Assembly: GCA_025765615.1 (NCBI GenBank)
Contig: JAIVFJ010000055.1
Coordinates: 124,001-188,000, forward strand
Origin: Zopfochytrium polystomum
Lineage: Eukaryota; Chytridiomycota; Chytridiomycetes; Chytridiales; Chytridiaceae
DNA length: 64,000 nt
Direction of reading: 5' to 3'
Both the position numbers and the translations under genes were made by a program. Positions 16,894-43,117 of the stretch are shown here, in pieces; positions within the stretch are counted from its first letter, which is position 1; each line of letters begins with the position of its first letter. A model generated the notes under the pieces. It was not told the origin of the DNA. It saw nothing but the letters and a program-made list of their open reading frames with translations, and searched no databases.

Positions 16894-17122
16894 TGAAAGA
16901 ATTTGCTATGGTGGCTGATTGATGGGTTGGGCTGCTGTGGTGTACACTACTGAAGGTGGTGGTGGTGGGAGGTTGATCTTGGATTCTGTCAGTCTTGTGT
17001 TTGTCTTTATACAAAACTGTTACAAGGACCATCACTTGCAAAATGCTGCAAGTCATCCTTGCAGAGCAGAAACTGGTCAAAGCTCCTGCACACTGCTTAC
17101 ACCAAAAGACCCAAAACTAACA
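16894..17122 (-). repeat. 5' LTR of nested copia-like element
   Basis: 229 bp, same sequence as 10811-11039. It supplies the last 15 codons of the apparent G1 pol frame before a stop at 17077, so that C-terminus is an artefact of the insertion. I see no tRNA-complementary TGG primer site next to it. Confidence 0.85.
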
Positions 17123-20100
17123 GGTTCTCCATCCTCATCTTCAGGATAAAGAGCTTTTTCCTCTTCACTCAGGGGATCATCTCTGTCTACTCCAGAAAAC
17201 ATGTCAATAGGGAGTCGACAGTCTCGTCCGTGCATCAGGAAAAACGGCGTTTCTCCGGTTAGCGGGTGAACGTGGGTCCTATATGCAAATAGGACATATG
17301 GGAGAACAGACGGCCAGTCATTGTGGGTCGTCTGGTCAATGAAAGACCTAATCATAGTCTTCAAACTTTTAATGGAGCGTTCTACAGCACCATTTGCTCG
17401 AGGCCATCGTGGCGACGAGAAAGTTTTCTTGGTTCCAAGTGCTTTACATAGGGCAGAAAGCAAGTCGCTGGGAAACGGCTGACCTCTGTCAGAGTGAAGG
17501 AAAACAGGAACCCCATGTCTGCAGAACACTTGCTCTACTAAAGCGCGTGTGGTGGTTTCTGCGGTGATGTCTGTGATGGGGACTGCTTCAACCCAACGGG
17601 TGAAGTAATCTATCACAATCATAATGTAGTGGTAACCTTCGGGAGTCTTTTTGAAAGGACCTGCAAAGTCAACAGCTACACGTTCCCAGGGATACATTCC
17701 GATGGGGACGGGGTGCAGAACTCCAGATCGAGAGGGCACTGGCTTGCTTTTCTGGCAAGTTTCGCAACTTGCAATATGGTTGCGGAGGTCTCTACCCATT
17801 GTTGGCCAGTAGAAATGTTCAGCAAGATTATCAAATACTTTCTTGGCACCAAGGTGTCCAGAGAGGAGGTCATCGTGGACAAGTTTAAGGACATCTCTCC
17901 TTAAATTGTCAGGGACACATATGGCAAGTCGTAGCGGGGCCCTCTTCATCATGAAAGAGTATGAGTCTCTCACAGCATGGAGAACTCCGCGTCGTATCAC
18001 CATCATGGCTGCTCTCTGAGTCATGGTACGAGGAGAAATACCTTCAGGGAGAGTACCTTCTCTTCTAAAGCGAAGGATAGGTCCGAAGTAAGGGTCTTTG
18101 TTCTGGAGATAACTCAGAGCTCGTGGGTTATCTAAAACTTGAACCTCAGATGGGAAGCTCTCATGTAGGGCTTCCAGTGTTGCGTCTGTGTCGACAGCTG
18201 GTACACTATCTTCACCGGGCATATCAATTGTCATATCAAGCGGTGAGATGGCGTCAGTAATCTCCTGTTCTGTCGGAACAGTAGGCACAAGATTGCTGAG
18301 GTTTGTAAGCAGCTCGATGCGATAATGATCGCTTATGGCAAGTCCACCAAATGAGGGATGGTCTGTGTGAATTTGAACACTATACCTAGAAGGGTCAATG
18401 TCGTTACTCACAAGGAAATAATCTACTCGTAGTAGCGGGATCCATTCACCCGAACAGGAGGACTTCATAGTCCAAGTAAGTCCACGGGATGAAGGGAATG
18501 TACGTCGAAACGCGTCGACATAGCCAGATGCTAAGAATCTGTCAAACCACTGTCTCTCGCTCTCTAAGAGGCCAGGGAAAGTGGCATGCTCTCTCTTCAG
18601 GCGAAGGCGAAGAGAGTGGTCGACATCAAGGTCAGCATGCGCAATGTTCAAGTCTCCAGCCACAATGATGGTAAATCCTTGCAGTCGGAGGGCTGAACAG
18701 TTTTGCATAATTTCTTCAAGGAAATTCATCTTGTAGGGTTGTCGGGATCCAGTCTCATCTGCAAAGCTGCTTGGAGCATAAACATTGAGGATTGCAAAGG
18801 GTCCGACAAGTAGAACAACAACACGTCCTTCTCTGGTGTGTTGAGGGTCTCCTAAGAAGGTGAATTCTCTACCGTTCAGCTCAGAACGGTAAAAGGTTGC
18901 AACACCGTTATTCCCAGTTCGAGGATCACAAAGCAAGCACTTCCATCCTTTAATCTGGCATAACTCGTCAACAAGTTTCTGGCGTTTTAGGCCAAGACGG
19001 GTTTCTTGCAAACAAACAATACAGGAAGATTGGGAGTTGAGGAAGTCCTCAAACCGTTTCGCAGGGTCCGTTTGCTGTGCAAAGGCGACACCAGATTTAT
19101 GAGCGACTCTAAGCCAGGAATACAAGCCATTAACATTCCAGGAGGAAATGTTAAAGGTAGGCACCCATTTAGGCCGTTCGTAAACTTCTACTACAGCAGG
19201 CTCATGCCGTCGTAGGAGATGGTGGCGGAGTATATCTTTCCGAATTGTGGGGTCAAAGAGAGATACTTTGCGCAATGGTTTAGCTTCATCTCCTGAATCC
19301 AACATGTTGGTCTCAGGGTTCAATTCGTTGTGGGTAGCAGGGGCTACCTCTTTTTTTGCTGTGTCTCCATTATCAGAGGGAACCACAGGTTCAATGGTAT
19401 CTGTCTGAGTTGCAGCTTCATCAGTGAAAACTAAGCGTTTCTCTTTACGGGCAGCAGGTCCAAGAAAAACACGTGAGAGAGCATCAGCAACGACGTTCTG
19501 TTTTCCTGACACATGAACAAGTTCGATGTCATAGTCCGAAAGCGCATAGGCCCATCGTGCAAAACGGCCAGTCAGAGGTCCTTTCTTGAACAGCTGGATG
19601 AGAGGTGCGTGATCAGTTTCAATAATCACAGGGCGGTTGAAGATGTATCGTTCAAACGTGTCGACAGCCCATACTATGGCAAGTCCTTCACGATCGTGAG
19701 TCCAATAGCGCGTTTCTGCGTCACTTAGAACTCTTGATGCAAATCCAACGGGTTTCCGTTTCTCACGGTTATGTGGGTCATCAGGGTCCACAACATAGAG
19801 TGCAGCTCCAAGGGCATAACCAGAGGCGTCACACTCAATGAGCAACTTATCATTGGGACCAGGAGTCACAAGAATGATATCTCGTTTCAGCTCATGTCGC
19901 AGGTTGTTGAAGGCTTCTTCCTGAAAGGGCCCCCAAACAAAAGGGTTCTTTCCAGAAAGGAGGTTATACAGCGGTTTAGCTTTCTCAGAGAAATTCTGGA
20001 TAAAACGCTTAAAGTAATTCGCAAATCCAAGAAACTGTTGCAGCTGGTTAAGCGTCCGTGGTGTCGGGTACTCGTCCAGGCTAACAGTCTTCGAGGGGTC

Positions 20101-22722
20101 TTTACGCAGTCCTTCCTTGGAGATACGATGTCCAAGGAATGGGAGGTCCAGGTGAAAGAGATTGCACTTAGAGGGTTTCAGCTTAAGATTGTATTCGCTG
20201 AAGCGGGAGAAAACACTTTCAAGGTGTACGAAATGTTCGTCAATGGAGTTTGAGTAAACTACAACATCGTCAACATAAACCATACAATATAACCACTTAA
20301 TTCCAGCAAGGACGTGATCCATTGCTCTCTGAAAGGTCGGAGGGCTGTTACAAAGTCCAAACGGCATAACGTTGAACTCGTGAAGTCCTTGTGAGGAAAT
20401 GAAGGCGGTCTTATGACGGTCTTCTTCAGCAACAGGAATCTGCCAGAATCCACTAAGTAAATCCATAGCGCTGAACACATATTTATTACTAATTGCATCA
20501 AAAACCTCCTCTATTCGCGGGAGCGGATAGCGGTCTTTGATGGTGATTTCGTTAACTTTACGAAAGTCAGCACAGAAACGCCATGAGCCATCAGGTTTCT
20601 TTGCTAAAACAACAGGAGCAGCAAACGGGGATTTGCTTTCACGAATCACGTTAGCTTCCTTCATTTTTTGAATATGTTCGCGTAACACTTCAGTTCTGCC
20701 AAGGCCCTCAGGGTAAGGGTTACTTGCAGGAATGCGCGCACCTTCTTGGAGTTTGATAGTGTGCGGCGGTGGAAACTTCTTTCCAGTAATTTTACCAGGT
20801 CGGAAGATATCGATATAGCGATATACTAAATTTTTGAGGCGAGCTACAACGTCGTCACCAAAAGTCTTAGCAATATGCTCTGTTTTCAGTTTGGCCCAGA
20901 TCTCACCATCAGTCATCTGGGACTCAGGTGGGAGATATTCCAGTTTATCTCCTTGTGTTGTATCACGACGAGGCATATCTGCTACAGGAGTAGCTACAGC
21001 TTCAATATTGTCCTCATTTACAAGTGTTTCTTCTGAATCTGATTCAAAAAGACATTCTATCTTAGCCATTTCTTCAAAAGAGGGCGGTACAATAGAATCG
21101 GGGAGGGTCTCCACTGAGCCTTGTGTCGTATATCCTCTTCCTGCATCAGGGAAGCGGGGATAGAAAGATGTACAGGATTTGTCTACATCATCAAGGGCAG
21201 AGAGGAAAGATTCTGTGTCTGCTGGGTTGTGACAATGGGCAATATTCACCATAGTCAGTAGTTGTTCCGGCTCTTCATGGAGCGTATCAGGTACGTCAAT
21301 GATGTAAGATCCTGGATCAGGCGGTACATCAAGGAAATGGGCGACACAAGTTCCTTTCTTTAGAGACACTGGTTTGTCGCGCAGATTTAATAACTGGACC
21401 TTAAAGATCTTAGGACTGCCATCCTCATTATGGAGATCGGCAGCTGTAAATATAGAGCCAGGGAAATGTATTTGGCTCTCCATCAGTGAGCCAACTGGTA
21501 CAGCATGCACAGTTGATTCTTTGAATTGGAGAGGTTGCTGGAGGTGTACTTTCACAGCATGACCGCATCTAGGGTCAAGAACAGTCTTTTCTGCAACAAC
21601 TAGGTCAATAATGTCGCTTGGTACTGCTTCAGCCTGCATAGATTCAGTGCTACGCAGGTAATACAGTAGCGGGGTTTTAAACCAACAATCTTCTCCGCGT
21701 GGCGTAGTGGCTTCCCACATAATTGCCTCGTGTTTGAAGGAGATTATGGCGCTAAAGGCATGCATTGTTGGAGTTCCAATAATGACAGGTTTGGGACACT
21801 GCTGCATTACTGAAAAACGGAGCCATTTTCCACAGGCACCAGATTGTCCAAAATTAACTTTCAGATAAGCATATCCGATAATTGGCACATGTCCTCCAAT
21901 TCCTCTGTTCATCACAGGACGAGAAGGAGGATGGATGGCAGGTGGTTTTGGTAAAGAACTCAGAAAAGAGGTAGTCACAACATTGTGACTAGAGCCGGAG
22001 TCGATAAGACATTCGGGGATAATCTTGCCGTGCACCCACATAGCAGCACGGGCAATGGTTGGAATGTTTTCGTCGAAAGCGACGTAAGACTCAGGGTACA
22101 CGGTTTCATCATAAAACCTTATTTCATCACTAAAACGCACTTGTTTTCTTATTTTCGGAGGTGTTTTACTGGTAGGTTCACCATTTTTACCTTCCGATTC
22201 ATTTTTGGTAACAGACTTGTTATCCTTGTTCTCTATGATTTCTTCTAGAGGTGTTTGGATAACTGGTGTGTTGTCCCTATTTTCTGTCTCAGTGTTGATG
22301 ACAGGTGCTTTCTCCTTATGTTGTGAGGGAGATTTTCCAATGACAGTGTCATCTTCTTTGTCATCGGTGTCGCTAAGTTCTTCAAGCGGTGGTGGAGTGT
22401 CATCTTCAATCCTCTTCAACTCTGCTGTTCGGTTCTGTCGCAGACGCGGCAGAGCCTCCCGGGGGGTCAAAAAGGGAGGGGGTACTTTGAGAGGAGCTCT
22501 CCAAAGTATCAGGAACAGGAGAAGCAGGTTCATCAGCGTCAGAGAAGGCACCACTTGTGGTGGGGGAAACCAGCTCTTTTGGAGGTGGTGTGGGTGCCAG
22601 GTGAACTTTGAAAGGGGAAGGACGAGCCAGTTGTTGCATCCGCAACGTACGGGCAACTGTAGGTGTAATGTGAGGTAAAGGTGGAGTAACAGAGCGTACA
22701 CAAATAACATGGCCGTGGACAC
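17123..22722 (-). CDS. G1 pol: protease-RT-RNase H-EEP-integrase
   Basis: About 1866 codons stay open up to the insertion point. The true start is probably further upstream: residues 1-85 look out of frame, and the gag frame overlaps at a C6 run near 22460. Domains: aspartic protease (LIDSGSSHNVV, D241), a linker (370-470), RT (710-870, CADFRKVN, MPFGLCNSPPTFQRAM, YVDD 816-819), RNase H (960-1085, CDASG, TDHAPL, ADALSR), EEP endonuclease (1186-1475) and integrase (HHCC at H1615/H1623/C1653/C1656; D1685, D1745, E1781). It continues at 9158-10810. All catalytic motifs look intact. The EEP between RNase H and integrase is not part of any Ty3/gypsy layout I know. Confidence 0.9.
18298..19167 (-). 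other. EEP (APE-like) endonuclease domain inside G1 pol
   Basis: Residues ~1186-1475 of the pol frame follow the exonuclease III/APE1 motif order: SSWNVNGL (N1196), CLQETRLG (E1240), LNVYAPSS (Y1315), AGDLNIAH (D1357, N1359), RVDYFLVSND (D1434) and AISDHYRI (D1465, H1466). These are the metal-binding and catalytic positions of the fold that nicks target DNA for non-LTR retrotransposons and incises abasic sites. There is no stop or frameshift between it and the flanking RNase H and integrase, so it would be made as part of the polyprotein. Confidence 0.92.
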
Positions 22723-22775
22723 GCTTGTACTCAGATTTACTACTCACAAATGCACGGAGCTCCTTAGAGAGCGGC

Positions 22776-27865: not shown

Positions 27866-27869
27866 CCGT

Positions 27870-29846
27870 TGTGAGTTGAACGCCCTGCCTCAGCGGTTGG
27901 GCACGCGTACAGCAGGCTTCGCAAGGTTGTCCTCCGCTCACAGACAGAGGTGGGGGTTCGATGAAATCGGCAGACGTAATGGACTTGGTGTGCGTCTTCG
28001 GGTGTGTTAAGCCCCAGGGATACGCACAGACCAGAGGGAGAAACACAAGGTCTTGAGCGGTGAGAGAGCAGAGATCGATGGCGCTGACGCTTAAGAGCGG
28101 CAACTAAAACCGAAGAAGGAAGACTATTCCCAGACTTTGGCACGTGTAAGGAGACCTTCAACACGCGGGGAACACGGCAAACTGACAGCACAGTACCTTT
28201 GGCACGTGTAAGGAGACCTTCAACACGCGGGGAACACGGCAAACTGACAGCACAGTACCTATTCCCAGACCAAATCGTTCTCAATTAGTTAAAACCTCAA
28301 AGAAAAAGTCCTTCCACCTTTGGCACGTGTAAGGAGACCTTCAACACGCGGGGAACACGGCAAACTGACAGCACAGTACCTATGTGCCCAAGTGGAAGTG
28401 AAGAAGGGGGGGGTGTAAAGGTGAGAAACTAACAAAGTAGAAGGAGTTGAAGCCAAGATCATCACTGAAACAGCAAGACTCACCTATTCCCAGACCAAAT
28501 CGTTCTGAGAATAGGGAGAGAGGAAGAAGAGAGTATGAAAGAACTTGAAAGAGAGGGTATTTTGGCACAGATAGGGAGGAGACAGAGAGAGAAAACTTTG
28601 ACAGGTTTTTGGAAAAAGGTAATAAAACACGTAAAATGACAGCAGGAGCAAGGAGGAGAAGAGGGGAAGTTGAATGGGTATTTTTGCAGAATTTTAGGAC
28701 CAAAATTGGTGGAGGGGTGTGGTTTGGCAGGGTATGGGAAAAGAAAATTTAAAACAATTAGAAAAACACGAAAACACGAACTGGAAAAGGCTTTGAAGGG
28801 GGTATGAGAAAGACACCAACCAAAAAGGGATGGGAGAGACATTTCAAAAACAGAAAAAAAAAGAGAAGAGAGACACCAGAAAATTGGAAAGGACAAAAAG
28901 AAAAGCACAAATAATTAGAAAAGTGAGAAAGGATTGCGCAGCCAATAACTCTACGAAAACAAATGCCCCCACCCTGAAACTTTGAGAGGAGGTAGAAGAT
29001 TGATAGACCTTTCCAACGAGCCAAAAATCAAGCAAATCCGTTCAGAATTCAGTCAGGGACTGGCACACAAAGTGGGGAAAAATCGCCACTAATTGGAAGG
29101 TGTCGAGTGTGGCCCCAAAAACGTCGATTTTGGCCCCCGTTCACGACCTCGTCACACCTGAACGCGCAGAGCTAGCCAGCTGAAATCTTGTATGCAGGTG
29201 GATGATGATAAGAAGGACCGACCCTCAAAAGGGCACCCCGAAAAACGAATCCCCCGAATTTTCGTCGCTGCTGCAAGTGTGCTGATCTAAGTCCATGAAA
29301 AATCAACGAAACCACACCAAAATTGGAGTGCAAACTCGAGTAGTGGCTGATATTGAGTGCACCAAATATGAGCAGCCTACGATGAAAGCCTGAACCATAC
29401 GACTCCTTTGTAGGTCACGTGACCCAGCCCTTTGGAGAGATAGGAAACTTTGAAAATTCGCCGAGATTGGTAGGAGATAGCCACAGCTGCGAAACTCACA
29501 GGCGTTTCTCGAGTAGATATAAAGAGTGTGTGTACCAAAAATCAAGAGAATAGGTCGAAAACTGACATACTCGTCAAAGTAGTGATGTTTCCGCAATTAA
29601 TAAAGATGGCCTTGAACTGTCTGGAAAAGTTGGGGAAAAACCGTAGAGTCTCCAAAATATGACCAAATGTAACCGAGTGCCCTGGCAAGCTGAGAAAAAA
29701 TCGACAAAAATCCTCGACTTAATCTGGCCCACACAATCAAATAGCGACCTCAAATTAATAAGTCTGAAAGAAATCCTCTAATTCGTCGGCTGCAGAATCG
29801 ACCAACACTGCATCGACCCGACCCATGGCGGACCGTTCCGCCGACA
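27870..29846 (-). repeat. Element B 3' LTR
   Basis: 1977 bp. The 3' end of pol (stop at 29755) extends about 90 bp into it. It contains three 62-bp repeats (28136-28197, 28198-28259, 28319-28380), each with a CACGTG palindrome. Confidence 0.9.
28136..28380. repeat. Three 62-bp repeats with CACGTG in LTR of B
   Basis: Units at 28136-28197 and 28198-28259 are in direct tandem; the third at 28319-28380 follows a 59-bp spacer. All start TTTGGCACGTGTAAGG and end CACAGTACC. The 21-bp ATTCCCAGACC... motif also occurs twice (28261, 28484). The same array is at 37475-37719 in the other LTR. CACGTG is a bHLH-type binding core, so this may be an enhancer; that role is inferred. Confidence 0.7.
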
Positions 29847-32800
29847 GTCCCAAAAGGCGCCTGCAGGCACTCGCCGTCCCTTGGCGAAAGGCGAGGGCGA
29901 GGTCGACGATTCCAAGCTCGGAGTCTGAGTCCTCGTCCGCTTCCACAGGGTCGATAGGCGTGTTGTCGAAGAAGAGGCCGGCAGGGTCATCACGAACCTT
30001 GAAAACCTTCAAACGATGCCCTGCAATTGGTCGCATAAGCGGAGTTCCATCAAGCTCACGCAAAAGGTAAGTCCCGCCGCTCCGACTCTCCACAACAATG
30101 AAGGGACCCATCCAGCGATCGTCTAACTTCCGACCCCACTGGTTGTCCAAGGTTGAGTCCCACATTAGCACTAAGTCTCCAGGCTGAAGAGGGGTAGACC
30201 GCATCTGATGCTGATGCCTTGCATTCTGCCGCTCAGCTGCCTCTGTACGCACTCGAGAGAGCGTTGTTCGGGCTCGCTGGATGTCCTCAGCCCTACGTTC
30301 AAGCTGGCGAATGCGAGCCGCAAGGAGATCCTCCCTTGACATTTTCGTCCGCCAGTTGATGACTGAGAAAGACTCCAACATGAAGTCCAAGGGAAAAAGA
30401 GGATCCTGCCCATACATCAAGTAGAATGGCGAGTAACCACGCTTCGTTGTTGTCACCCGCTGAGCGAAGAGACCAAGGGAAAGGTAGCGGGGCCACTTGG
30501 ACTTGTCTGCCCTCGTCAGCTTCTTGATGGCGTTGACCAAGATGGGGTGTGAACGCTCGACAACACCGTTTGCCCTCTGGTTAGACACTGTTGTTGTGTC
30601 AAGATGAATACCGTACCGCTTTGCAGTCTCATCCACTTCCGTCTTTGACCACTCTCCTCCATCGACAGTGATGCTGACTGGATAGCTGAAGCGGTGAAAA
30701 ACGCTCTCAATGGTCCACTTCAACATTGGCCCAAGCGACTTTGTTCTGAATGCGCATGCCTCAGGCCAACCAGTCAAAGCACAAGTGAGATGCCAGATGT
30801 ATCGCCGCCCATCTGATGCGCGATCCATGTGCACCAAATCGCCATACCATACCATCGCCGCTGTCGCTGGTGGCATGATTGGCACAACTGGCTCGTACAC
30901 CGTCCGCTTCGACTGACGCTGACAGTCCTCACACGTCTCAACAAATGACCGCACATCGCTGACCATGTGCGATCGCCAGAAAAATCTGCTGTGCACCTTT
31001 GCATATGTCCCCTCAAACGAAAAGTGACCGCCTCCAACACCCTGATGGCACTCTGCAATAGCCCTACGCTGATCCGAAATCCGGCCCAGAACGCGAAGAG
31101 GTTGCTGCCCGTCAGGCTGCCGCCGAAAGAGGACACTGTCAAGAAGGAAATACTTCTGCACGTCACGAAGAAAACCTCGTCTTCTCGATAAACAGAGGTT
31201 GGGAGGAAGTTCCAAAGAATCCAAGTAGCGCGCAATCTCCATAAGGTAGGGGTCGTCCTCTAGACTGTCGAGCTGCAGCGCCCACAATGACCCAAACGCC
31301 TTCTCCGCTGCCTCCTCCGCCTCCAGAGTTGGATCCCCCTCCACCTCCTCCTGTGGTAGACGAGAGAGGGCATCAGCGACGCTGTTGTTCCTCCCCCGAA
31401 TCGTCCGAAGCTCGACGGGAAAAGTGTAAATGTAGGCAATCCACCGAAGCATGGTGGCGTCAGAAAGACGTGGATTGTTCAACATACCCCTGATGGCTGA
31501 TGCATCCAACTCCACAATGATACGTGGCGCCCCAGCCACCAAGTAGTAAATCCGCCTCAAATTCCGAAAGAGTGCACACAGCTCCTTCTTAATCTGCGAG
31601 TATCGCAGCTCCCCCTCCTTCCAAAGTCCAGAGAAGTATCCAACTGCGTACCGCCTCCCCTCTGTATCCTCCTGCGCCAGGCAAGCCCCTTCGCCAAGAG
31701 GCCCTGCGTCGCAGGTGAGGATGAAGGGTCGATTCTCCAAGTCCGTGTAGTCAGGGCTGCGGAGCGCCGGCGATGAAGAGAGAAGCTCCTTAAGCTGCTG
31801 GAACGCCTCCCCCTGTGGCTGACCCCACTCCCAAGGCTGATTCTTCCGCAAGAGTCTGATGAAAGGCTCGCAGATGATCGAGAAGAACTCAATCCAGACC
31901 CTAAACTGCTGAACAAGTCCAAGAAACTGCCGAACCTCTTTCACGCTGGTGGGAGGCAAGAAGCGTAGCGCCCCCTTCAACTTCTTGGGGTCGATGTGTC
32001 GGCCTTCGATGGAGAACTTAACGCCAACGCCGACAGTCGAAGGGACCGCAATCTCAGTCTTCCCCTTCCCCAGGTGAAGAGTGAGCCCAGAGTTGACCGC
32101 CCTAGTCAAAAGCTCCTCAAGAATGTCTGCGTGGAGCACAACAAATCGTCGGACGCCAGGAACATCTGACTCCACCAGATCATCCTTCGACCCACTGAAG
32201 ACGACCACATCATCAACAAAAGGCCTTGCCTGACCAGACCTGAAAAAGACAATGTTGGAGACTTTCTGGGCATGAGCTGGGGAGTTGGTGAATCCCTGAG
32301 GAAGGCCAACCGTGCTGATCTGCCCAACTGGAGTTCGAACTGCTGTCATCTTCCGGTGCTCGGGGTTGACTGTGATTTGATCAAAAAATGACATGCTGTC
32401 AATACGAGAGTAGATGACGTGTCCTGCCGCCTCAAGTGAGATCTCGTCGATCTTGGGCGGCGACCCCGCCTCGCGGATTGCCACCCTGTTCAATGGCTGC
32501 AGATCCTGGATAAACCGCACATCCTGCTCCTCCTTTGTCGATCCGTCTGACAATCTGACAATCGTCGGCTTCTTTGGGACCAACATCCAAGGAGAGGAGT
32601 AAGGACCGTCGCAATGCTCATACATGCCGTACCCCATCCTTTCTGTGATCTTCCTTGTGAAAATTTCCAAAAGAAGAGGTGGTTGGTGGCGATCCTTCGT
32701 GTTCCAGGGCTCGTGAGGTATTGTCCAGATGTTAACTGGAGGAAAGAGATCCGACCTCAAGCGACCCATCTCGCGAAGGTGGACTGAAAAAGCCTTCCTG

Positions 32801-34005
32801 TAGTACCGAAGGCGCATCTGAAGGTAGGCGTACTCCGCTGCCCGCAAGTATCCTTTGTGCTCCATGCTCGATGCAAACATCTCCCCAAACAGCTCATCTG
32901 AGATCTCCACTTGATCTGCTGGCTGAAGAGGCTGAGAGAGGGCCACCTCAATGCGCTTTGTATCATAACCATCATACCGAGGCTGCTGCGTGGCGACAGG
33001 CCGAACCTTTTCCGCCACCGTCTTAGACTTCGTCATGACGTCAAAAGCAAGAGAAGAAACAGCAAGTTGAGCTTCCCCAGTCAAGCCCCCCACAAGCCGA
33101 AGGTCAAGTGCAACTGTGCAAGCGACTGGTACGTGATCAGAGCACCGCCAGCTCATGTGGTGGAACGCCGAAGGGACTCGAATTGACTTTGAAAGCAGGA
33201 TGTAGTCGTACCGCATCCCAAGGTTCAGACGCCGGTCCTGGTAGTACCAAGTGCTGAAGAGAGGTTTGTGAGGGTGAACGTGGCGGAATGCATCCACAAG
33301 GATGGCTGTCATTGCCCGCATCCAGGTTCGCTCCTCGTCACGAAAGCCTGAAGTAATCTTGCTAATGACTTTGGGGTTGATGTCAATGAGCTCCTGCGCC
33401 ACGTTGGTGTCTGCTCCCAAAATTATCTGAAAACCTCGCTGCTGTAGGTCTGAAAGATGAAGGTAGACTCTACGCTGCACGTCCTCCTTATAAGCAATCC
33501 TGTCATCACGCCCCCGACTGGCTGCTGGGAAGTACACGTTGACGAGGACCAAGGTGCCGTACCGAAGCTCCAAATACCGACCCTCTGAAGCAGCAAGGGA
33601 AAGGCCAGGGATTTCGCGGTGCACTTCTGGCAAAAGCCAAGGCAAGCGCTTTCTCACAAGAGTAGCGACACCGCTAGTGCCCTTTCCTTTCACTGAGCCT
33701 ACTTCAAGGGGAAAGTCGGAGACGAAGACTTCAAAAGTAGAAGTGTTGAAATCCAGAACGTCAGAAAAAGAGGCATCACCAAAGCGAGTCTCCTGCAGGA
33801 AAATGACGTCCTGGTGCAAGAGAACCGCCTTCTGCTGATTGTCCAACTTTGGTGCTGCGTTCCTCCAAGAGTTCACATTCCACGTGAAGATGTTGAGAAA
33901 AGTGAGATGGGGTGGATCAGGTGCGAGTTTTTCAGGTAGGGCGCTAGAGCTCGCAGCCTCTAGTGCCCGCGCTGAAAATCCTGACTCTGGGTTTCTGGCT
34001 CCTGA
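29755..34005 (-). CDS. Element B pol: EEP-RT-RNase H-integrase
   Basis: The frame is open from just after a TAA at 34008-34006, about 1416 codons. A GTG at 33876 is not a credible start because it falls inside the first EEP motif; entry by -1 frameshift from gag is likelier. Domains (numbered from 33876): EEP (-7 to 255), RT (430-700; QDLQPLNRV, LPQGFTNSPAHAQ, FVDD 553-556), RNase H (718-840; CDAGPLGEG, ELCALF, ELDASA, ADALSRL), integrase (H944, H951, C982, C985; D1013, D1072, E1107 in RANGVVER), then GDLVLMWDS and LDDRWMGPFIVVE of the C-terminal module. No chromodomain. The last ~30 codons lie in the LTR. Confidence 0.9.
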   Translation of the reverse strand, partial: SGARNPESGFSARALEAASSSALPEKLAPDPPHLTFLNIFTWNVNSWRNAAPKLDNQQKAVLLHQDVIFLQETRFGDASFSDVLDFNTSTFEVFVSDFPLEVGSVKGKGTSGVATLVRKRLPWLLPEVHREIPGLSLAASEGRYLELRYGTLVLVNVYFPAASRGRDDRIAYKEDVQRRVYLHLSDLQQRGFQIILGADTNVAQELIDINPKVISKITSGFRDEERTWMRAMTAILVDAFRHVHPHKPLFSTWYYQDRRLNLGMRYDYILLSKSIRVPSAFHHMSWRCSDHVPVACTVALDLRLVGGLTGEAQLAVSSLAFDVMTKSKTVAEKVRPVATQQPRYDGYDTKRIEVALSQPLQPADQVEISDELFGEMFASSMEHKGYLRAAEYAYLQMRLRYYRKAFSVHLREMGRLRSDLFPPVNIWTIPHEPWNTKDRHQPPLLLEIFTRKITERMGYGMYEHCDGPYSSPWMLVPKKPTIVRLSDGSTKEEQDVRFIQDLQPLNRVAIREAGSPPKIDEISLEAAGHVIYSRIDSMSFFDQITVNPEHRKMTAVRTPVGQISTVGLPQGFTNSPAHAQKVSNIVFFRSGQARPFVDDVVVFSGSKDDLVESDVPGVRRFVVLHADILEELLTRAVNSGLTLHLGKGKTEIAVPSTVGVGVKFSIEGRHIDPKKLKGALRFLPPTSVKEVRQFLGLVQQFRVWIEFFSIICEPFIRLLRKNQPWEWGQPQGEAFQQLKELLSSSPALRSPDYTDLENRPFILTCDAGPLGEGACLAQEDTEGRRYAVGYFSGLWKEGELRYSQIKKELCALFRNLRRIYYLVAGAPRIIVELDASAIRGMLNNPRLSDATMLRWIAYIYTFPVELRTIRGRNNSVADALSRLPQEEVEGDPTLEAEEAAEKAFGSLWALQLDSLEDDPYLMEIARYLDSLELPPNLCLSRRRGFLRDVQKYFLLDSVLFRRQPDGQQPLRVLGRISDQRRAIAECHQGVGGGHFSFEGTYAKVHSRFFWRSHMVSDVRSFVETCEDCQRQSKRTVYEPVVPIMPPATAAMVWYGDLVHMDRASDGRRYIWHLTCALTGWPEACAFRTKSLGPMLKWTIESVFHRFSYPVSITVDGGEWSKTEVDETAKRYGIHLDTTTVSNQRANGVVERSHPILVNAIKKLTRADKSKWPRYLSLGLFAQRVTTTKRGYSPFYLMYGQDPLFPLDFMLESFSVINWRTKMSREDLLAARIRQLERRAEDIQRARTTLSRVRTEAAERQNARHQHQMRSTPLQPGDLVLMWDSTLDNQWGRKLDDRWMGPFIVVESRSGGTYLLRELDGTPLMRPIAGHRLKVFKVRDDPAGLFFDNTPIDPVEADEDSDSELGIVDLALAFRQGTASACRRLLGLSAERSAMGRVDAVLVDSAADELEDFFQTY
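33112..33897 (-). other. EEP (APE-like) endonuclease domain at start of B pol
   Basis: Motifs in order: IFTWNVNSW (catalytic Asn just upstream of the GTG at 33876), IFLQETRFG (E29), LVNVYFP (Y115), LGADTNVAQ (D156, N158), MRYDYILLSK (D224) and WRCSDHVPVA (D247, H248). All expected acidic, Asn and His positions are present. It lies after protease and before RT, a different place from the EEP in G1. Confidence 0.92.
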
Positions 34006-37000
34006 TTATCCCCCTCGTCATCCATGATGTTAGGACGCAGCCGCCGCTTTGCCCTGATGTTGTTCTCAAACTGAAGCGCCAAGAACTTCGCAGAGTGACC
34101 CTCCTCATCCGACCAGGTCACCCATACATCGCCACTGCGGTCATAATCGATCTTCGATGCCGACGCTGCATTGAACGGCCCACCCAAGAGAATCTCCTGA
34201 GACTTCACGCCATTTGGAACAACCCAGAAGAACTGCTTGAAGGTAAGACCACCCTTAGACACTGGTACGTCCGGTATGCACCCAAACAAGGCTGTCTTTC
34301 CCCCTGCAGCGCCGTTCATGATCAAGCGGGTGTCCTGAGAGATTGCCATCCCAGATTGAATCAACGCACTCGCAAGTCTGAAGCTCATGACATTCAGTTC
34401 GGCCCCCGTATCAATCAACCCCCGCCTGACCATGAAGTCGCCAACTGTGATGTTGTTGGCATATAGAAGGGGGAAGGTCTGGTACGCATCTGACTGACGA
34501 TATCGATCGCTAAGATATCCATTTAGATCGTTGCGCGTGCTGCTGTTGAAGTTCCTACCAACTGAGAAGACACGTCGACTCGATCCCCGATCTGCAAATG
34601 TCTCAGCCTGAGATGGATGTGCAAGCATGTTGACATTTGCTTGGCGATCAGCCGCACGTTGCACTGCTGCTGACAGATCAACCTCCCTCAGAAATGGAGG
34701 AAGTTCTGCTGTGTGCTGAGCCACGACTTTCTGATAATTCTTTGGCAAATCTTCGAAGAACTGATGATTTTCTAGGAGAGAGAAGACATTGACCGCAACC
34801 TCTGGGCCGCTCCCCTCTTCCTCTTCCTCTGAACCTGCTTCAGCGCCCATGACCATGGGATCTGCAGCGTCGACTGGCTTCCTCTTTGTCTTCATCCAGT
34901 CCACCAAGGTGCTCTGAGCAACTGAGGAAAGCTGAAGAAATTCGAGGGCTGACATTCGCACTTCCGCCTTTGCCAAGACGTCATGCACCATCTGTGGGCC
35001 GTCAACGTTCACTAAAGGGCCGGCGCGCTCGTACTTGTACTTTGGACGCTTCACCTCAGCTGCGTCATCATACTTCCCTGGCTCTGAAGGTCGAGGATCA
35101 CGCCCAGGAGATGGCTTCTGAACCGAAGGGGGGACTGCAGGAGCCTTCCCCTTGTCACCTGATGGACCTGCCACCGGCAGTGGAGCAGCAGGAAACGAAA
35201 CTTTTGCTGGAGTGGGTGGAGTAGCTGGAGTCGGGGCTGATGGAGCCGCCGGGGTCGTCACAGATGGAGGGGCAGCACGAGAGCGAGTTGTGGGTTGAGC
35301 AGCCTCACGAACCTCCTCTCGACGCTGTCGCCTCTTCTCGCGATCCTCCATGCCATCGTCATCGCGTCCACGCTTCTCTGCAAGAACAGCAGCCTCCACC
35401 ACTGCAATGAAGGGGACAGGCATCATCCCGTACACCGGCCGCAAGACTCCAGCCGACTCCACCATGCGAGCAGCCGAGATTGGTGGCTTGTCCTGAAAAA
35501 ACTCGGCAAGAACGACATCCAAGTCCTTCTCCCGGCCGTAGATTGACACATGCCGAAACCGACCATCTTTGACTGATGGGTCAAACACCATCTGCTCCCA
35601 GCGCTCTGTCTCCGCAGCTGTCAATAGGCTCGAGTTGTCGCTGCTGCTGGACGCAAGTTCAAGAACAATGGCGTTTGCTGAAGCTCCTTTCAACATCGAC
35701 TCCTTCACCACCTGCTGCAAGGTCTTTCCTCCGCCGGACGGCAGGTAAAGTCGCTTCCCAGCTTTGGTTGAGAGGAAGGGTCGATCATTCTCATCAGTAG
35801 AAATCATTACGTCTACCCCGCCGGCAATGTCGTCCTTCAAGACCTGGCAGGAGCGAATGTGGTTGTGGCCGCCATCATCATTGGTAGCACCGCACCAATG
35901 ACACTTGGATGCAGGTCGCTCCTTTGAGGGGGAGCGGGACTCGCTACCACCACCGCCAAAACGCACCGAGGGTCGTTTCTCCGCCACGTTATTGACGTCG
36001 CCAAAAATATCAATGTAAGCCTTAATCGCCATGGCACTTCCATTGAAGTCTGAAGGCTTCAGGGCGTCTGACTTCTTCAGGAAGAGTGTCATCTTCTTGA
36101 ACTCCTCTGTAAGACGGTCCACGTCGTTGTCAGAGACTGGTGCCTTTGGCACAGCTGGCGTCAAGACCTGAGGGGTAGCTGGAGCCATTAGGCCTTTCCC
36201 CTTGAAGCCGCTAGGCACCGCAATGGCCCTCTCCTCAGGAGGAATCGCTGTCGTCGGAGTTGTAGCCAGCGTCCTGAGCTTGCTGACTACTGTGGACGAT
36301 AAGGATGCCCCAGGAACCCTCATGTTGCTCTTAATGACCGCCTTGCTCTGCACGCGACGCTCAAGGTCAAGAATGAACTGCCGCATGCCAAGGTAGTCAT
36401 GAACCAATTGCTTGTTGCGGCTGTCCCAAAAAGCCTTGTGGACTGTCTCCAGGTGATCATCCTGAAGACCGCCAAGGAAATACTCAATGATTTTGTTCTC
36501 AAGCGCCCGAGATGTGGGTGGGATTCGCCGCAGAAGGGTGTCAAACTCGCTGAGGTACGACTCCATGCTTCCATCTGGGTACCCTTCCACCCGAACTCGT
36601 TCGCCGTAAAGCCGAAGGTCTTCGTTGTTGACAACTGTGTCACGAAGAGTGTAGGTGATTCGCATGAAGAGAACAACCTCCTCCTCTGTAACGTCTCGCT
36701 CAGCTGGAGGCCCAGCAGGAGTGGGTCGTGCAGCCCTAGCTAAGTCAGCCGCTGCACGTTGATTTTCCGCTTCCAAGACCAGTCGCACTGTCTCCAAGTA
36801 CGTGTCAAGAGGAGCCGAAGGGTCGGTGCCTGCCGTCCTTGCGCGCCCCAGGTCCGCAAGAGCATTGTCTCTATTTGTCAGAAGTGCCTGGTATTCAGCG
36901 TCTGTTGGAGCGGCTGGAATGACAGGAGCCAGTGGTGGAGGTGGTGGGATGAAACGACGTTGGTCCCAGTGCTCGCGCCACTGCCGGAAGACAGTCCGGT

Positions 37001-37154
37001 TGAACAGGCCGAGAATGACCCGTCCACGCTCAGTTGATGAAGTTATGCCTTGAAGGTTGAGGTATCGTTCTGCATCTTCGAGCCACTCTGTGAGGTTCGA
37101 CCCAGTAAAAGGCTCCGGCCTCTCCTCAATGGAGGTGGTGACTGATCGGTGCAT
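33960..37154 (-). CDS. Element B gag with aspartic protease
   Basis: 1064 codons from ATG 37154, about 40 nt inside the primer-site region. The N-terminus (FTGSNLTEWLEDAERYLNLQ, GLFNRTVFRQWREHW) and YPDGSMESYLSEFDTLLRRI resemble Ty3-type capsid. A CX2CX8HX5C cluster (CHWCGATNDDGG-H) near residue 416 looks like a variant zinc knuckle. A Pro/Ala-rich linker follows (600-700), then the aspartic protease at about 900-1010 with LIDTGAELNVMS (D915). The stop at 33960 overlaps pol, which is in the -1 frame. No internal stops. Confidence 0.88.
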   Translation of the reverse strand: MHRSVTTSIEERPEPFTGSNLTEWLEDAERYLNLQGITSSTERGRVILGLFNRTVFRQWREHWDQRRFIPPPPPLAPVIPAAPTDAEYQALLTNRDNALADLGRARTAGTDPSAPLDTYLETVRLVLEAENQRAAADLARAARPTPAGPPAERDVTEEEVVLFMRITYTLRDTVVNNEDLRLYGERVRVEGYPDGSMESYLSEFDTLLRRIPPTSRALENKIIEYFLGGLQDDHLETVHKAFWDSRNKQLVHDYLGMRQFILDLERRVQSKAVIKSNMRVPGASLSSTVVSKLRTLATTPTTAIPPEERAIAVPSGFKGKGLMAPATPQVLTPAVPKAPVSDNDVDRLTEEFKKMTLFLKKSDALKPSDFNGSAMAIKAYIDIFGDVNNVAEKRPSVRFGGGGSESRSPSKERPASKCHWCGATNDDGGHNHIRSCQVLKDDIAGGVDVMISTDENDRPFLSTKAGKRLYLPSGGGKTLQQVVKESMLKGASANAIVLELASSSSDNSSLLTAAETERWEQMVFDPSVKDGRFRHVSIYGREKDLDVVLAEFFQDKPPISAARMVESAGVLRPVYGMMPVPFIAVVEAAVLAEKRGRDDDGMEDREKRRQRREEVREAAQPTTRSRAAPPSVTTPAAPSAPTPATPPTPAKVSFPAAPLPVAGPSGDKGKAPAVPPSVQKPSPGRDPRPSEPGKYDDAAEVKRPKYKYERAGPLVNVDGPQMVHDVLAKAEVRMSALEFLQLSSVAQSTLVDWMKTKRKPVDAADPMVMGAEAGSEEEEEGSGPEVAVNVFSLLENHQFFEDLPKNYQKVVAQHTAELPPFLREVDLSAAVQRAADRQANVNMLAHPSQAETFADRGSSRRVFSVGRNFNSSTRNDLNGYLSDRYRQSDAYQTFPLLYANNITVGDFMVRRGLIDTGAELNVMSFRLASALIQSGMAISQDTRLIMNGAAGGKTALFGCIPDVPVSKGGLTFKQFFWVVPNGVKSQEILLGGPFNAASASKIDYDRSGDVWVTWSDEEGHSAKFLALQFENNIRAKRRLRPNIMDDEGDNQEPETQSQDFQRGH
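33975..33981 (-). promoter_or_regulatory. Candidate -1 frameshift site gag/pol of B
   Basis: On the minus strand GGATTTT lies in the 46-nt gag/pol overlap, in phase so that GAT-TTT could re-pair one base back. The TAG of gag follows 12 nt later. The heptamer is only partly canonical, and I did not establish a downstream structure. Confidence 0.4.
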
Positions 37155-37192
37155 GGATAATTAGGGCCTTAGTGTATGTGTCCGCCGAAAGA

Positions 37193-37207
37193 CCAACGGT
37201 AGCGCCA
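37193..37207 (-). other. Candidate primer-binding site of B
   Basis: On the minus strand TGGCGCTACCGTTGG starts one base after the 5' LTR end (...CTCACA-G). The TGG start and position fit a tRNA primer site; I could not name the tRNA. Confidence 0.45.
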
Positions 37208-37208
37208 C

Positions 37209-39184
37209 TGTGAGTTGAACGCCCTGCCTCAGCGGTTGGGCACGCGTACAGCAGGCTTCGCAAGGTTGTCCTCCGCTCACAGACAGAGGTGGGGGTTCGA
37301 TGAAATCGGCAGACGTAATGGACTTGGTGTGCGTCTTCGGGTGTGTTAAGCCCCAGGGATACGCACAGACCAGAGGGAGAAACACAAGGTCTTGAGCGGT
37401 GAGAGAGCAGAGATCGATGGCGCTGACGCTTAAGAGCGGCAACTAAAACCGAAGAAGGAAGACTATTCCCAGACTTTGGCACGTGTAAGGAGACCTTCAA
37501 CACGCGGGGAACACGGCAAACTGACAGCACAGTACCTTTGGCACGTGTAAGGAGACCTTCAACACGCGGGGAACACGGCAAACTGACAGCACAGTACCTA
37601 TTCCCAGACCAAATCGTTCTCAATTAGTTAAAACCTCAAAGAAAAAGTCCTTCCACCTTTGGCACGTGTAAGGAGACCTTCAACACGCGGGGAACACGGC
37701 AAACTGACAGCACAGTACCTATGTGCCCAAGTGGAAGTGAAGAAGGGGGGGGTGTAAAGGTGAGAAACTAACAAAGTAGAAGGAGTTGAAGCCAAGATCA
37801 TCACTGAAACAGCAAGACTCACCTATTCCCAGACCAAATCGTTCTGAGAATAGGGAGAGAGGAAGAAGAGAGTATGAAAGAACTTGAAAGAGAGGGTATT
37901 TTGGCACAGATAGGGAGGAGACAGAGAGAGAAAACTTTGACAGGTTTTTGGAAAAAGGTAATAAAACACGTAAAATGACAGCAGGAGCAAGGAGGAGAAG
38001 AGGGGAAGTTGAATGGGTATTTTTGCAGAATTTTAGGACCAAAATTGGTGGAGGGGTGTGGTTTGGCAGGGTATGGGAAAAGAAAATTTAAAACAATTAG
38101 AAAAACACGAAAACACGAACTGGAAAAGGCTTTGAAGGGGGTATGAGAAAGACACCAACCAAAAAGGGATGGGAGAGACATTTCAAAAACAGAAAAAAAA
38201 GAGAAGAGAGACACCAGAAAATTGGAAAGGACAAAAAGAAAAGCACAAATAATTAGAAAAGTGAGAAAGGATTGCGCAGCCAATAACTCTACGAAAACAA
38301 ATGCCCCCACCCTGAAACTTTGAGAGGAGGTAGAAGATTGATAGACCTTTCCAACGAGCCAAAAATCAAGCAAATCCGTTCAGAATTCAGTCAGGGACTG
38401 GCACACAAAGTGGGGAAAAATCGCCACTAATTGGAAGGTGTCGAGTGTGGCCCCAAAAACGTCGATTTTGGCCCCCGTTCACGACCTCGTCACACCTGAA
38501 CGCGCAGAGCTAGCCAGCTGAAATCTTGTATGCAGGTGGATGATGATAAGAAGGACCGACCCTCAAAAGGGCACCCCGAAAAACGAATCCCCCGAATTTT
38601 CGTCGCTGCTGCAAGTGTGCTGATCTAAGTCCATGAAAAATCAACGAAACCACACCAAAATTGGAGTGCAAACTCGAGTAGTGGCTGATATTGAGTGCAC
38701 CAAATATGAGCAGCCTACGATGAAAGCCTGAACCATACGACTCCTTTGTAGGTCACGTGACCCAGCCCTTTGGAGAGATAGGAAACTTTGAAAATTCGCC
38801 GAGATTGGTAGGAGATAGCCACAGCTGCGAAACTCACAGGCGTTTCTCGAGTAGATATAAAGAGTGTGTGTACCAAAAATCAAGAGAATAGGTCGAAAAC
38901 TGACATACTCGTCAAAGTAGTGATGTTTCCGCAATTAATAAAGATGGCCTTGAACTGTCTGGAAAAGTTGGGGAAAAACCGTAGAGTCTCCAAAATATGA
39001 CCAAATGTAACCGAGTGCCCTGGCAAGCTGAGAAAAAATCGACAAAAATCCTCGACTTAATCTGGCCCACACAATCAAATAGCGACCTCAAATTAATAAG
39101 TCTGAAAGAAATCCTCTAATTCGTCGGCTGCAGAATCGACCAACACTGCATCGACCCGACCCATGGCGGACCGTTCCGCCGACA
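37209..39184 (-). repeat. Element B 5' LTR
   Basis: 1976 bp, the partner of 27870-29846. It carries the same 62-bp repeat triplet at 37475-37719. Short ORFs in it duplicate those of the other LTR and include the displaced pol C-terminus. Confidence 0.9.
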
Positions 39185-39188
39185 CCGT

Positions 39189-40305: not shown

Positions 40306-40320
40306 TAGGAAGCCCCCCCC

Positions 40321-42511
40321 TGTGAGACTGTGCTCTCTAAATCCTCACCCTGGGCTATGGGTGGCAAATAGAGCAATGGCCTAAATACCAATCCTGAAAA
40401 GTGAAAAAGGGCAAAAAGGAGATGTCTAGGGGTCACTAGACAGGACAATGTATTTGGAGTCTTAAGAAGCCCAAGAAACACAAAGAAACTCTCTTATTAC
40501 ACACAAAGAGAAGACTCTCACACTCAGACCAAAGGCAACTGTGAAAAGGTGGCACACTAGCAAAGAATGTGCAGGGTTCTCTGGTCCATGACACAGAGTG
40601 GGCCCAATGGGAGGCAAAAGCCAAAGCCAAAGGGGACCGGGAAATCTGGTAACAATGCTGGAGGTGCAAGATGCAGCATGCTCCAGGGAGCGGCACTAAG
40701 TGCAGCACTCCAATCCAACTGAAGAAGACAAGAGAGTGGGGAGGAAAGTGGCCAGACCCCGGTCTGTTGGAGCCACCACCATGGAGCAAGGCTCCCTCTC
40801 TGTCAAAGACAAGCCCTAAGTTGGAGGGGGTTGGACACAGAGGGCAAACACAAGGAACAGTTAGTGTGCAGAGGTGTCTGTTGAATTAAATCAGAACTGT
40901 TTTCCACTTAACAGAACCAGACACAACTTGTCTCACTCCAAGGAGAAGTTCCAACTCAATCCAAGGAGGGGGCACACAGGGGTGGGAGACAGTGGGACTC
41001 TTCTTACTTCATCCTACTAGGACACAGACATCTGCTTCACCAAGCCAGAGGAATTCCCTATCTTAGAAGCAAGGAAGGTTAACACCCACTCCCTCACCCA
41101 AATGTGACACCATGACATCACAGGCATTAATCTGAGAGAAAGAGGGTCTGAACCCAGTGAAGACCAGGCCCACCAGAGGCCACAGGAGCCAACAACCAGG
41201 GAGGAGGGGGCATACCTGAGAGACCGTTCCTGCAGCAGTACCTGACCAGACAGCTCATTCATATCCCCTTGAGAGACCTGGATTTGACTAGATGTATTGA
41301 CAGGAACCTAGAGGCACCACCACAGATTTACCCTCCATCCTTCCATCACCAAGTGGCTCCTACCCAGTCCAACCTAAGCAGCATGCAGAATTGGTGAGGT
41401 GCACTGGGGCTTGAACCCAGCACACTGCCATCATGGCCAAGAGGACTTCAACCTCCTGTCACACACCAGGGGACTGCCACCCCCAGCTCTACATACAGTC
41501 AGGAAGAAAAGGGCAGGCAAGGGACTTCAGGCACAGGTTCTCACAGTCAACAAGATGGGGGGCAGCTGCTTAAATAGGAAAGGGTTGGAATCAGCAGGGT
41601 GAAGGAAGAAGGAAGGGAAAAGAGGGGAAAACATATACAAAAGAACAAAACAATAAATAAAACAGCAAAGAAGAGAGAGGAGGAGTGAGTCACCAAACAA
41701 TGGGGCTGAGCCATCAAACAAGGAAGACAGCTCAGAAAATCATGGAGCATTTCTTGGCATCAGCTGCCAAGAAAGATGGAGGAGATGGAGAGAGCTGGTT
41801 GGTGCAAAGAGGAAGACAGTCACTCTCAGCCACACAAGAAAGAAAAGACACAGACAGAGACAACAAGGAATAAATAAAAGAGAAAACAGGAAAAACAGGA
41901 AAAACAGGATAAATTACTAATTGGAAAAATAAGTAAAAATCACCAATGAAAAGATAAAGAAAAACCCTGTGATCTCATACCCTTTTATGAGGTATTACAT
42001 CATGGTAGCAGGTGGTAGGGCTTGTTAGCTCTGCCATCATCTTGTTAACTCTGTCCATCTGGGCTTAGCACTTCTCCCACAGAAGTGTTTCAGTCCTAAG
42101 TCATTTCCAAAAGTGAGGGGCCATTGGCCAGGCATAGTAGGACTTTGCATTTCTGCCCAGTCTGTCAACTAGCATGTCTCGAACTTGGCACCTTCCCAAT
42201 TGAAGGGAGCGCTCTAACCACTGAGCAAGGGAACCTTGTATCAGCAATCAGAATCAAGACTGAGTCTTTCTGTCTGCAACATCGCCAATAATAAGTAATA
42301 ATAGTAGAGCTCAGAGGCAGACATACAGAGCCAGTCAAAGGCCGTATGGAAACCCAATAAATAATAAGAGAGTAGGAATCCAAGCCTAGTCACGTTTTGC
42401 CAGCAAAACGCGGGTCGAGACGGGGTGGTAATCCTCACAATTACCAGTTAAAAAGTGGGTATACACTTAATTTATTTGAGGTCACAGGCTTGACAGCCTG
42501 TCGTCCTCACA
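40321..42511 (-). repeat. G1 5' LTR (LTR copy 2, 2191 bp)
   Basis: TGTGAG...CTCACA. Faces the ORF-A leader. Diagnostic bases separate it from copies 3 and 4 in the left half (GACAATGTATTTGG, GACACAGAGGG) and pair it with copy 3 in the right half (GCAATCAGAATC, GTCAAAGGCC). Confidence 0.8.
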
Positions 42512-43117
42512 TCTGGGGCTGCTCACGGATAAGATCTTCAACAAAGTCCTTGCGGGTGAGGGACATTGGATGTCCACTTCCGACAGAGCAAGCGTCTGTA
42601 TGTGTTCCCCACTTCTCGTACATAGCCAAAATGTTCCTCATGGATTGCGTGCTGATTATGAAACGTTCAGCCAGCTTCTTCGTTGTCGGGACGTAACAAA
42701 AACCGAAAAACACAAAAAGAAAAAAAAAACTCGATGCCACAATCGCAAATCCACGCCTGCGTTTCAATCTGCCCAAAGCAGCCTTAACTGCTGTGGACTT
42801 TTGCCAAGATGGCATTGTAGACAAAGGTCTTGCCACATTCTCCCACTCCTTCAAGATAAAAGATTCAACCTTCTGAGGGAGGCACCACTCCAGGCTGTCA
42901 AAATTGCTCAACAGCATCCACCACTGCCCTGTAAACAAAGGCCTGCCCCTGGTTGAAGCTCCTTTCAGCATTTGCCACAATGGCCTCCAGCTGCTGCTGG
43001 TTGTAGTACGAGTTTAGCCTTTGAAAAATCAGCTGGAGCTGGCCTTCCAGTGCCAGCACAGGCTCCGGCTGGAACTCTTCCAGCTGTGGCAGGGTGGGGA
43101 AGTTGCGCAGTGAGGTC
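42512..43117 (-). pseudogene. Spacer 1: Tc1-like HTH plus Helitron helicase piece
   Basis: 606 bp, apparently identical to 45309-45914. On the minus strand the first ~385 nt (43117-42733) encode a Helitron stretch (LRNFPTLPQLEEF, LNSYYNQQQLEAIV) and a degenerate P-loop (GVGECGKTFVYNAILAKVHS). After an A-run, a Tc1/mariner-type helix-turn-helix piece follows (KKLAERFIISTQSMRNIL, LTRKDFVEDLIREQPQ). Neither is intact. Confidence 0.6.

Follow-up and report, generated by a model that had tools for sequence, protein, structure and literature searches.

The window analysed here, a 64,000-nucleotide stretch of contig JAIVFJ010000055.1 from the chytrid Zopfochytrium polystomum (Chytridiales), which we take to be the same fungus as Cladochytrium polystomum, carries on its minus strand an 11.3-kb Ty3/gypsy long terminal repeat (LTR) retrotransposon, element B (27870-39184). 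Between the protease (PR) and the reverse transcriptase (RT), this element encodes an endonuclease/exonuclease/phosphatase (EEP) domain that almost certainly belongs to the ExoIII/APE1 repair family and not to the type found in long interspersed nuclear elements (LINEs). A second LTR element in the window, element A, has an EEP domain at another place in pol. Searches covered 80.16 Mb of genome, whose contigs are denoted by C-numbers, with the window copy of element B on C55.

Element B and its copies

Element B is bounded by LTRs of 1977 and 1976 bp with TGT..ACA ends, of the TG..CA form, and its gag-protease and pol frames overlap by 46 nt, with pol in the -1 frame (Table 1). Along pol, Pfam matched Exo_endo_phos (residues 41-291), RVT_1 (523-650), RNase H (RH; 727-860) and the integrase (IN) zinc domain (979-1033) in that order. 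The DDE residues of the integrase stand at 1056, 1115 and 1150, with 58 and 34 residues between them, and identical spacing was found in P0001, a protein of 1569 residues from elsewhere that starts with an EEP domain. The Pfam rve core model gave no match in pol, though zinc domain and DDE spacing are both present, and no chromodomain (PF00385) was found there, on which count element B is not a chromovirus. A TGG stands one base past the 5′ LTR with no tRNA matched, and the sequence before the 3′ LTR is not clearly purine-rich. These observations bore out an earlier note on this DNA, which had described a young LTR element with integrase and an intact EEP domain between protease and RT, as well as a second element with the domain in a different position. 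The near-identical LTRs mark a young copy, short target duplications accompany the integrase motifs, all catalytic residues of the domain are present, and element A has its EEP domain between RNase H and integrase. To all appearance, element B is autonomous.

Table 1. Coordinates of elements B and A, counted from the first nucleotide of the window
Feature	Position	Strand	Details
Element B 5′ LTR	37209..39184	-	1976/1977 positions identical to other LTR, one gap
Element B 3′ LTR	27870..29846	-	LTR-LTR alignment
Element B target duplication, left copy	27866..27869	.	CCGT (ACGG on minus strand)
Element B target duplication, right copy	39185..39188	.	CCGT; intact site present at 6 other places
Element B gag-protease frame	33960..37160	-	open, 1066 codons
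Element B pol frame EEP-RT-RH-IN	29755..34005	-	open, 1416 codons; final ~30 codons inside 3′ LTR
Element B aspartic protease (DTGA)	34173..34424	-	PF13650 E 1.9e-4, below its cut-off
Element B EEP domain (ExoIII/APE1 family), pol residues 37-302	33100..33897	-	PF03372, TIGR00633, PDB matches, catalytic residues
Element B RT (RVT_1 stretch)	32056..32439	-	FVDD motif at residue 596
Element B RNase H	31426..31827	-	PF17919, PF17917
Element B integrase, H2C2 zinc domain + DDE	30556..31071	-	PF17921; motif positions
Element A pol frame RT-RH-EEP-IN	17077..22743	-	1888 codons
Element A EEP, between RNase H and integrase	18319..19158	-	PF03372 2.2e-16; TIGR00633 131.5 bits

Three LTR-bounded copies of element B were found (C55, C79 and C143), identical in the searched gag stretch and at 100% (rounded) in pol, including EEP and RT-RH, with the pol frame of the C79 copy open for 1235 codons only. 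All three complete interiors carry the domain. The copies are flanked by the 4-bp duplications ACGG, GCGG and ACGT at distinct sites and are independent insertions. The flanks of element B, joined at one CCGT, have uninterrupted counterparts (91-98% identity) at six other genomic places, and the site probably lies inside the element A family, because C117, one of the contigs matched, also has an a-type element and element A frames adjoin B. At C251:88551-89194, on a contig with an a-type element, a B LTR occupies exactly the site used in the window, yet is only 98% identical, reflecting either an ancient insertion common to both places or two insertions into the same site.

Outside these copies, gag DNA of B was found as fragments in C57, C502 and C171 and as a 72% piece in C143, and pol DNA as short pieces only. 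The remnants in C171 (an LTR with the first 199 interior bases) and C57 (a gag piece) are too short to show whether EEP was present, and C502 retains EEP pieces. In C255 and C19, B LTRs lie ~9-10 kb apart, and in each case the 901 bases read come from a different element (an opposite-strand Ty3 RT-RH and another gag, respectively), for which reason these LTRs were regarded as solo LTRs or as fragments that later insertions had split; the end read in C255 is no LTR end. Other B LTR pieces were 69-98% identical.

Among the edges of nine further LTR pieces, perfect duplications were GCGT, CCGG and CCAG, and four pairs were one CpG transition apart (C20 CCGG/CTGG, C113 ACAC/ACGC, C358 GCGG/GCAG, C19 ATGG/ACGG); C171 has no duplication because B interior follows its LTR, and C255 has none either. 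CG thus occupies the centre of 5/6 perfect duplications of the B family and of 9/10 when one-base CpG transitions are admitted, far in excess of the 4.4% CpG among window dinucleotides (binomial 9e-7 and 6e-12, the latter generous in that either side may count).

Family and active site of the EEP domain

On TIGR00633, a curated ExoIII/APE1 model with a cut-off of 99.05, the EEP domain of element B scored 131.7 bits, and the domains of P0001 (129.5), of the sister families C104 and C20 (130.9 and 131.8) and of element A (Table 1) also lay above that value. Four LINE-like endonuclease domains of the same genome scored 58.6-60.4 and full-length rows of this kind at most 63.4; their LINE label is our presumption, no RT having been read beside them. 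The narrower bacterial model TIGR00195 gave 114 for element B, under its cut-off of 182.55, and PDB matches were to ExoIII/APE1 structures (5j8n, 5cfe, 1bix). The LTR domains share model score, fold and catalytic residues with the ExoIII/APE1 apurinic/apyrimidinic (AP) endonucleases, and differ from them in forming part of a retroelement polyprotein and in the replacement of N174, F266 and W280.

The place of the domain before RT had led the earlier note to liken element B to the endonuclease-RT (EN-RT) order of LINE ORF2, a likeness that did not hold up. The APE-type endonucleases of LINEs (L1-EN and kin) do belong to the same EEP superfamily, the EN-RT order is seen in both B and P0001, A or S at the N174 position is common to LTR and LINE-like domains, and a tree side joining the two is present, unsupported (48/86). 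Against an endonuclease for target-primed reverse transcription stand the separate grouping of the LINE-like domains in the EEP trees (support 100/100), their scores far under the ExoIII cut-off, the location of the domain after RNase H in the nearest sister family, and the LTRs, DDE integrase, 4-bp duplications and clean empty site of element B. Because these last features point to movement by integrase, the domain would not be needed as a LINE-type nicking enzyme, and we consider such a role highly improbable. L1-EN itself is reported to provide the nick for reverse transcription, to leave abasic sites uncut and to lack exonuclease activity (PMC8565326). A LINE origin of the LTR domains was likewise disfavoured by the TIGR00633 scores and the trees, in which the long LINE branch does not fix the root among ExoIII, APE1 and LTR domains.

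Residues are named by APE1 numbering, mapped onto the LTR domains by motif, and the survey comprised 26 LTR domains, of which four are b-type (the three identical copies included), two c-type and 20 a-type (three with stops). N68, E96, Y171, D210, N212, D283, D308 and H309 are retained in 26/26, and the catalytic positions were invariant in an alignment of eight LTR domains with nine APE1/ExoIII proteins (17 in all). At the N174 position, all 26 LTR domains and 6/6 LINE-like domains have A or S, against N in 199/200 cellular proteins (one gap). The F266 position is T in 6/6 b- and c-type and W in 20/20 a-type domains, against Y, W or F in 200/200 cellular proteins. The W280 position is occupied by M in b-type, F in c-type and L in a-type domains, against W in 200/200 cellular proteins, a control biased by the fetching of 80 bacterial rows with two patterns, one containing this W, and by the choice of the rest for likeness to host APE1.

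With A, T and M at these three positions, element B does not have an abasic pocket of the APE1 type. In a study of human APE1, F266A raised mismatch exonuclease activity ~20-fold in the burst and ~50-fold at steady state, W280A raised it ~5-fold at steady state with a burst ~2-fold slower, and N174 contacts the exonuclease substrate; the pocket was linked to substrate choice across the family, exonuclease action being comparatively strong in E. coli ExoIII, whose pocket has a single aromatic (PMC5785985). Since the pocket varies within the ExoIII/APE1 family (same source), its replacement lowers the case for an enzyme acting as APE1, not the case for family membership.

An AP endonuclease serving the complementary DNA (cDNA) would cut abasic sites arising from uracil or oxidised bases and leave host repair to complete the copy. 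Protection of this general kind is provided to some retroviruses by dUTPase. The residues that form the abasic pocket are, however, those that have been replaced, W280 throughout the LTR domains and F266 by T in every b- and c-type domain, which makes this role unlikely.

Carriers, ancestry and selection

The order PR-EEP-RT-RH-IN was found in the three copies of element B, and P0001 has its EEP domain at this position too. Among 27 mapped carrier loci, three have PR-EEP-RT and 24 fit RT-RH-EEP-IN, some of them showing part of the series only. The sister families C104 and C20 have RT-RH-EEP-IN, with EEP domains 44 and 42% and RTs 38 and 39% identical to those of B and with the integrase of C20 in another frame; a relic on C74 retains PR, EEP and RNase H in the B order. 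Because b- and c-type elements share pol backbone and EEP domain but not its place, the domain changed position in that lineage. The families C25, C89 and C3 (the last read as far as the beginning of IN) have RT-RH-IN without EEP. A search of the whole genome for RT scored 150 of 886 candidates, nearly all at 141.3 bits, the same as the C3 copy that was read; the most abundant family thus seems to lack EEP.

The place of the domain bears on two further roles. As an integration helper, it would work with integrase on target DNA, either by trimming 3′ ends ahead of the joining step or by action on the CpG-centred target; its location between RNase H and integrase in 24/27 mapped carriers, as far as each was read, and the CG-centred targets of B favour this. 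In B and P0001, however, the domain lies away from the integrase, target preference is as a rule determined by the integrase itself, and the CG data cover the EEP-bearing B family only, leaving such help quite unlikely. Alternatively, a domain that follows RNase H in most mapped carriers could act on RNA, by removing the tRNA primer, RNA left after RNase H or host RNA, and ExoIII has RNase H activity; yet the elements retain an RNase H domain of their own, and we regard an RNA-side role as very unlikely.

In the EEP trees, the LTR domains formed one clade (95/90 with 35 rows, 94/82 with 36 rows), within which b-type joined c-type (100/99) and P0001 (92/70 and 98/94). These values favour a single origin of all LTR EEP domains, but separate placement of the a-type or of the b- and c-type domains was not rejected (p 0.20 each). 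The RT-RH tree (21 rows) also joined b with c (98/95) and b with P0001 (99/97), placed a-type elements elsewhere among EEP-less elements, and rejected a single clade of all carriers together with the relic C88 (approximately unbiased (AU) test, p 0.00072); for this tree and the 35-row EEP tree, the program issued a warning that long branches meet. With carriers in two separate Ty3 lineages, the domain would have been either exchanged between them or captured twice. Leaving EEP carriers aside, P0002 from Chara braunii stood closest to the b/c lineage in RT-RH among the rows used (100/99, long branch). The integrase tree (15 rows) joined b with c (100/100) and did not reject all EEP-bearing integrases together (p 0.149). 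Joint movement of EEP and integrase was unsupported, a clade of a- and c-type integrases being rejected (p about 1e-55).

Recent capture from host APE1 was also unsupported, as the LTR domains were excluded from fungal APE1s (94/99). Joining fungal APE1 with the b/c domains only or with the a domains only was rejected (AU p 0.013 and 0.004), and joining it with all LTR domains was not (p 0.33). The host APE1 gene lies on C103, has two exons and an intron with a CA-rich run, and is 100% identical to the Z. polystomum protein P0013 over the 302-residue query. Phage records gave 12 weak matches below 60% identity, which were xthA wherever annotated among the matches listed; viral contigs contained no relatives of element B pol or P0001; and a long-protein search with the element A EEP domain gave no match at E 1e-5.

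Ratios of nonsynonymous to synonymous substitution (dN/dS) were calculated by the Nei-Gojobori method on pairs of relatives. The EEP domain gave 0.059 for C104-C20 (dS 2.5), 0.101 for A-C136b (dS 1.35), 0.106 for A-C77 and 0.050 for A-C461, so that a ratio was obtained in 4/9 pairs, with dS >1 in the first two, and none in 5/9 (saturated or no synonymous change). For RT-RH the ratios were 0.067, 0.085 (RNase H part only), 0.315 (A-C77, very few changes) and 0.017, with 3/7 pairs giving none, and for integrase 0.103, 0.049, 0.061 and 2.144 (A-C77, hardly any change), with 1/5 giving none. The EEP domain is thus constrained about as firmly as RT and integrase. The EEP-IN linker gave 0.154, 0.121 and 0.500 (1/4 without ratio), and because these values are just somewhat above those of EEP, the linker offers little contrast as a neutral control. 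The EEP sequence evolves faster than RT, as in A-C54 (55.8% against 83.0% identity). The earlier note had held the domain to be under selection or recently functional and had proposed a dN/dS comparison with RT. That comparison gave values far below 1, similar to those of RT and integrase, and purifying selection was accordingly found in relatives of element B.

Elsewhere in the window, an insertion of ~6.3 kb (10811-17122), with a GGTTC duplication and identical repeats of 229 bp at its ends, splits element A, whose integrase tail lies beyond it at 9158-10822 together with a weak match to the chromodomain (PF00385 1.5e-4, below cut-off). A repeat that is single at 6889-9081 recurs beyond element B as three tandem copies at 40320-47866 (2797-bp units, the third shortened), and each of the four copies bears a tRNA-Phe-like ARAGORN hit; the repeat may be element A's LTR, amplified in head-to-tail fashion. 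A Ste12-type transcription factor (PF02200; 50365-53094) adjoins the repeats, and a fatty acid desaturase (PF00487), the second of two adjacent frames and perhaps with an intron, lies at 59364-61031.

Predicted role and its meaning

The best explanation overall, to which we give an even chance, is an autonomous-looking Ty3 element with a captured ExoIII/APE1 nuclease that serves cDNA ends. Processing of the polyprotein would lead to packaging of the EEP domain alongside RT and integrase, where it may act on cDNA as a 3′-5′ exonuclease, 3′-end cleaner or proofreader, with mismatched, damaged or blocked 3′ termini, not extendable by RT or not joinable by integrase, as its targets. That the domain is specifically a co-packaged 3′-5′ exonuclease which cleans or proofreads cDNA 3′ ends is predicted with somewhat less assurance, just short of an even chance. 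We infer this as the best reading from the combination of selection, positional tolerance, an ExoIII catalytic centre and the loss of bulky restraining pocket residues, and the changed position in pol is in keeping with an enzyme acting as an independent module that need not adjoin RT. Reverse transcription is error-prone because RTs have no proofreading. A more ambitious but doubtful possibility is built-in 3′-end proofreading by a captured ExoIII-type exonuclease opened at F266 and W280, which would be, to the extent of our search, the first such case in an LTR pol, exchanged among Ty3 lineages and relocated inside pol.

Several points weigh against an exonuclease serving cDNA ends. EEP-less Ty3 elements appear to be far more numerous, so that LTR transposition in Z. 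polystomum does not require the domain. No recognisable EEP domain was found in the DNA around RT-RH of the relics on C27 (the nearest RT to B, 48%, with three stops) and C88 (c-type, one stop), in a survey that left out the RT pieces in C110, C96 and C416. The change of N174 to A or S, which the LINE-like domains share, could lower activity, and the slower burst of W280A in APE1 means that the pocket argument is not one-sided (PMC5785985). Selection on element B's own domain is unmeasurable because its three copies are identical. The earlier note had named full-length copies lacking the domain as evidence to the contrary; every complete interior has it, and the nearest approach to such a copy is the distant, stop-ridden relic on C27.

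The EEP-less Ty3 elements that thrive in the same genome, together with the two relics, could also mean that the captured domain is a passenger without function. Constraint on the domain (dN/dS 0.05-0.11), retention of the catalytic residues in all 26 LTR domains and occurrence in a second source at 40% identity speak against this, and we find it scarcely credible.

The cDNA exonuclease reading has parallels among LTR elements with extra domains, described here from the accessible parts of the sources. The bdelloid elements Juno and Vesta encode a DEDDy (RNase D/DnaQ-like) exonuclease as ORF3 (PMC5408684). Like the EEP carriers, they are LTR elements with a 3′-5′ exonuclease that is common to unlike retroelements and mutually closer than to host genes; unlike them, they use another nuclease superfamily, in a separate ORF3 instead of a pol domain, with no significant departure from neutrality (PMC5408684). 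Modular gain of an extra domain is also known from Ty3/gypsy chromoviruses and other accessory-domain carriers, including LTR elements with a chromodomain and a DnaQ-like exonuclease (PMC6338049), LTR elements with an extra RNase H (aRNH; PMC5348765), and retrotransposons with DNA methyltransferases (DNMT; PMC5890265), where a figure on LINE and DIRS elements names PF03372; in their accessible parts, these three papers describe no ExoIII/APE1 domain in an LTR element. Element A, with its weak downstream chromodomain match, resembles such carriers. A fungal survey ascribes complex LTR elements with many extra domains to multiple insertions and, in its accessible part, does not name EEP (PMC3248453), and a fungal genome screen assigns PF03372 to the LINE order (PMC10799480). 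The assembly of Cladochytrium polystomum is given as the largest among chytrids, at 81.2 Mb with 12.3% transposable elements (PMC9926174). A literature search, whose scope excluded subscription papers and Repbase reports and whose sources were partly accessible, turned up no report of an LTR pol with an ExoIII/APE1 or EEP domain. The kind of element and the enzyme family are known; as far as we found, their combination and the mobility of the domain inside pol have not been described.

These findings caution that PF03372 inside a transposon is no proof of a LINE. An enzymatic domain that has moved inside pol, in two Ty3 lineages, is evidence for exchange of domains between elements or for repeated capture. 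With a natural retroelement that carries an ExoIII-family nuclease under purifying selection, the gain of fidelity or end repair by capture becomes testable.

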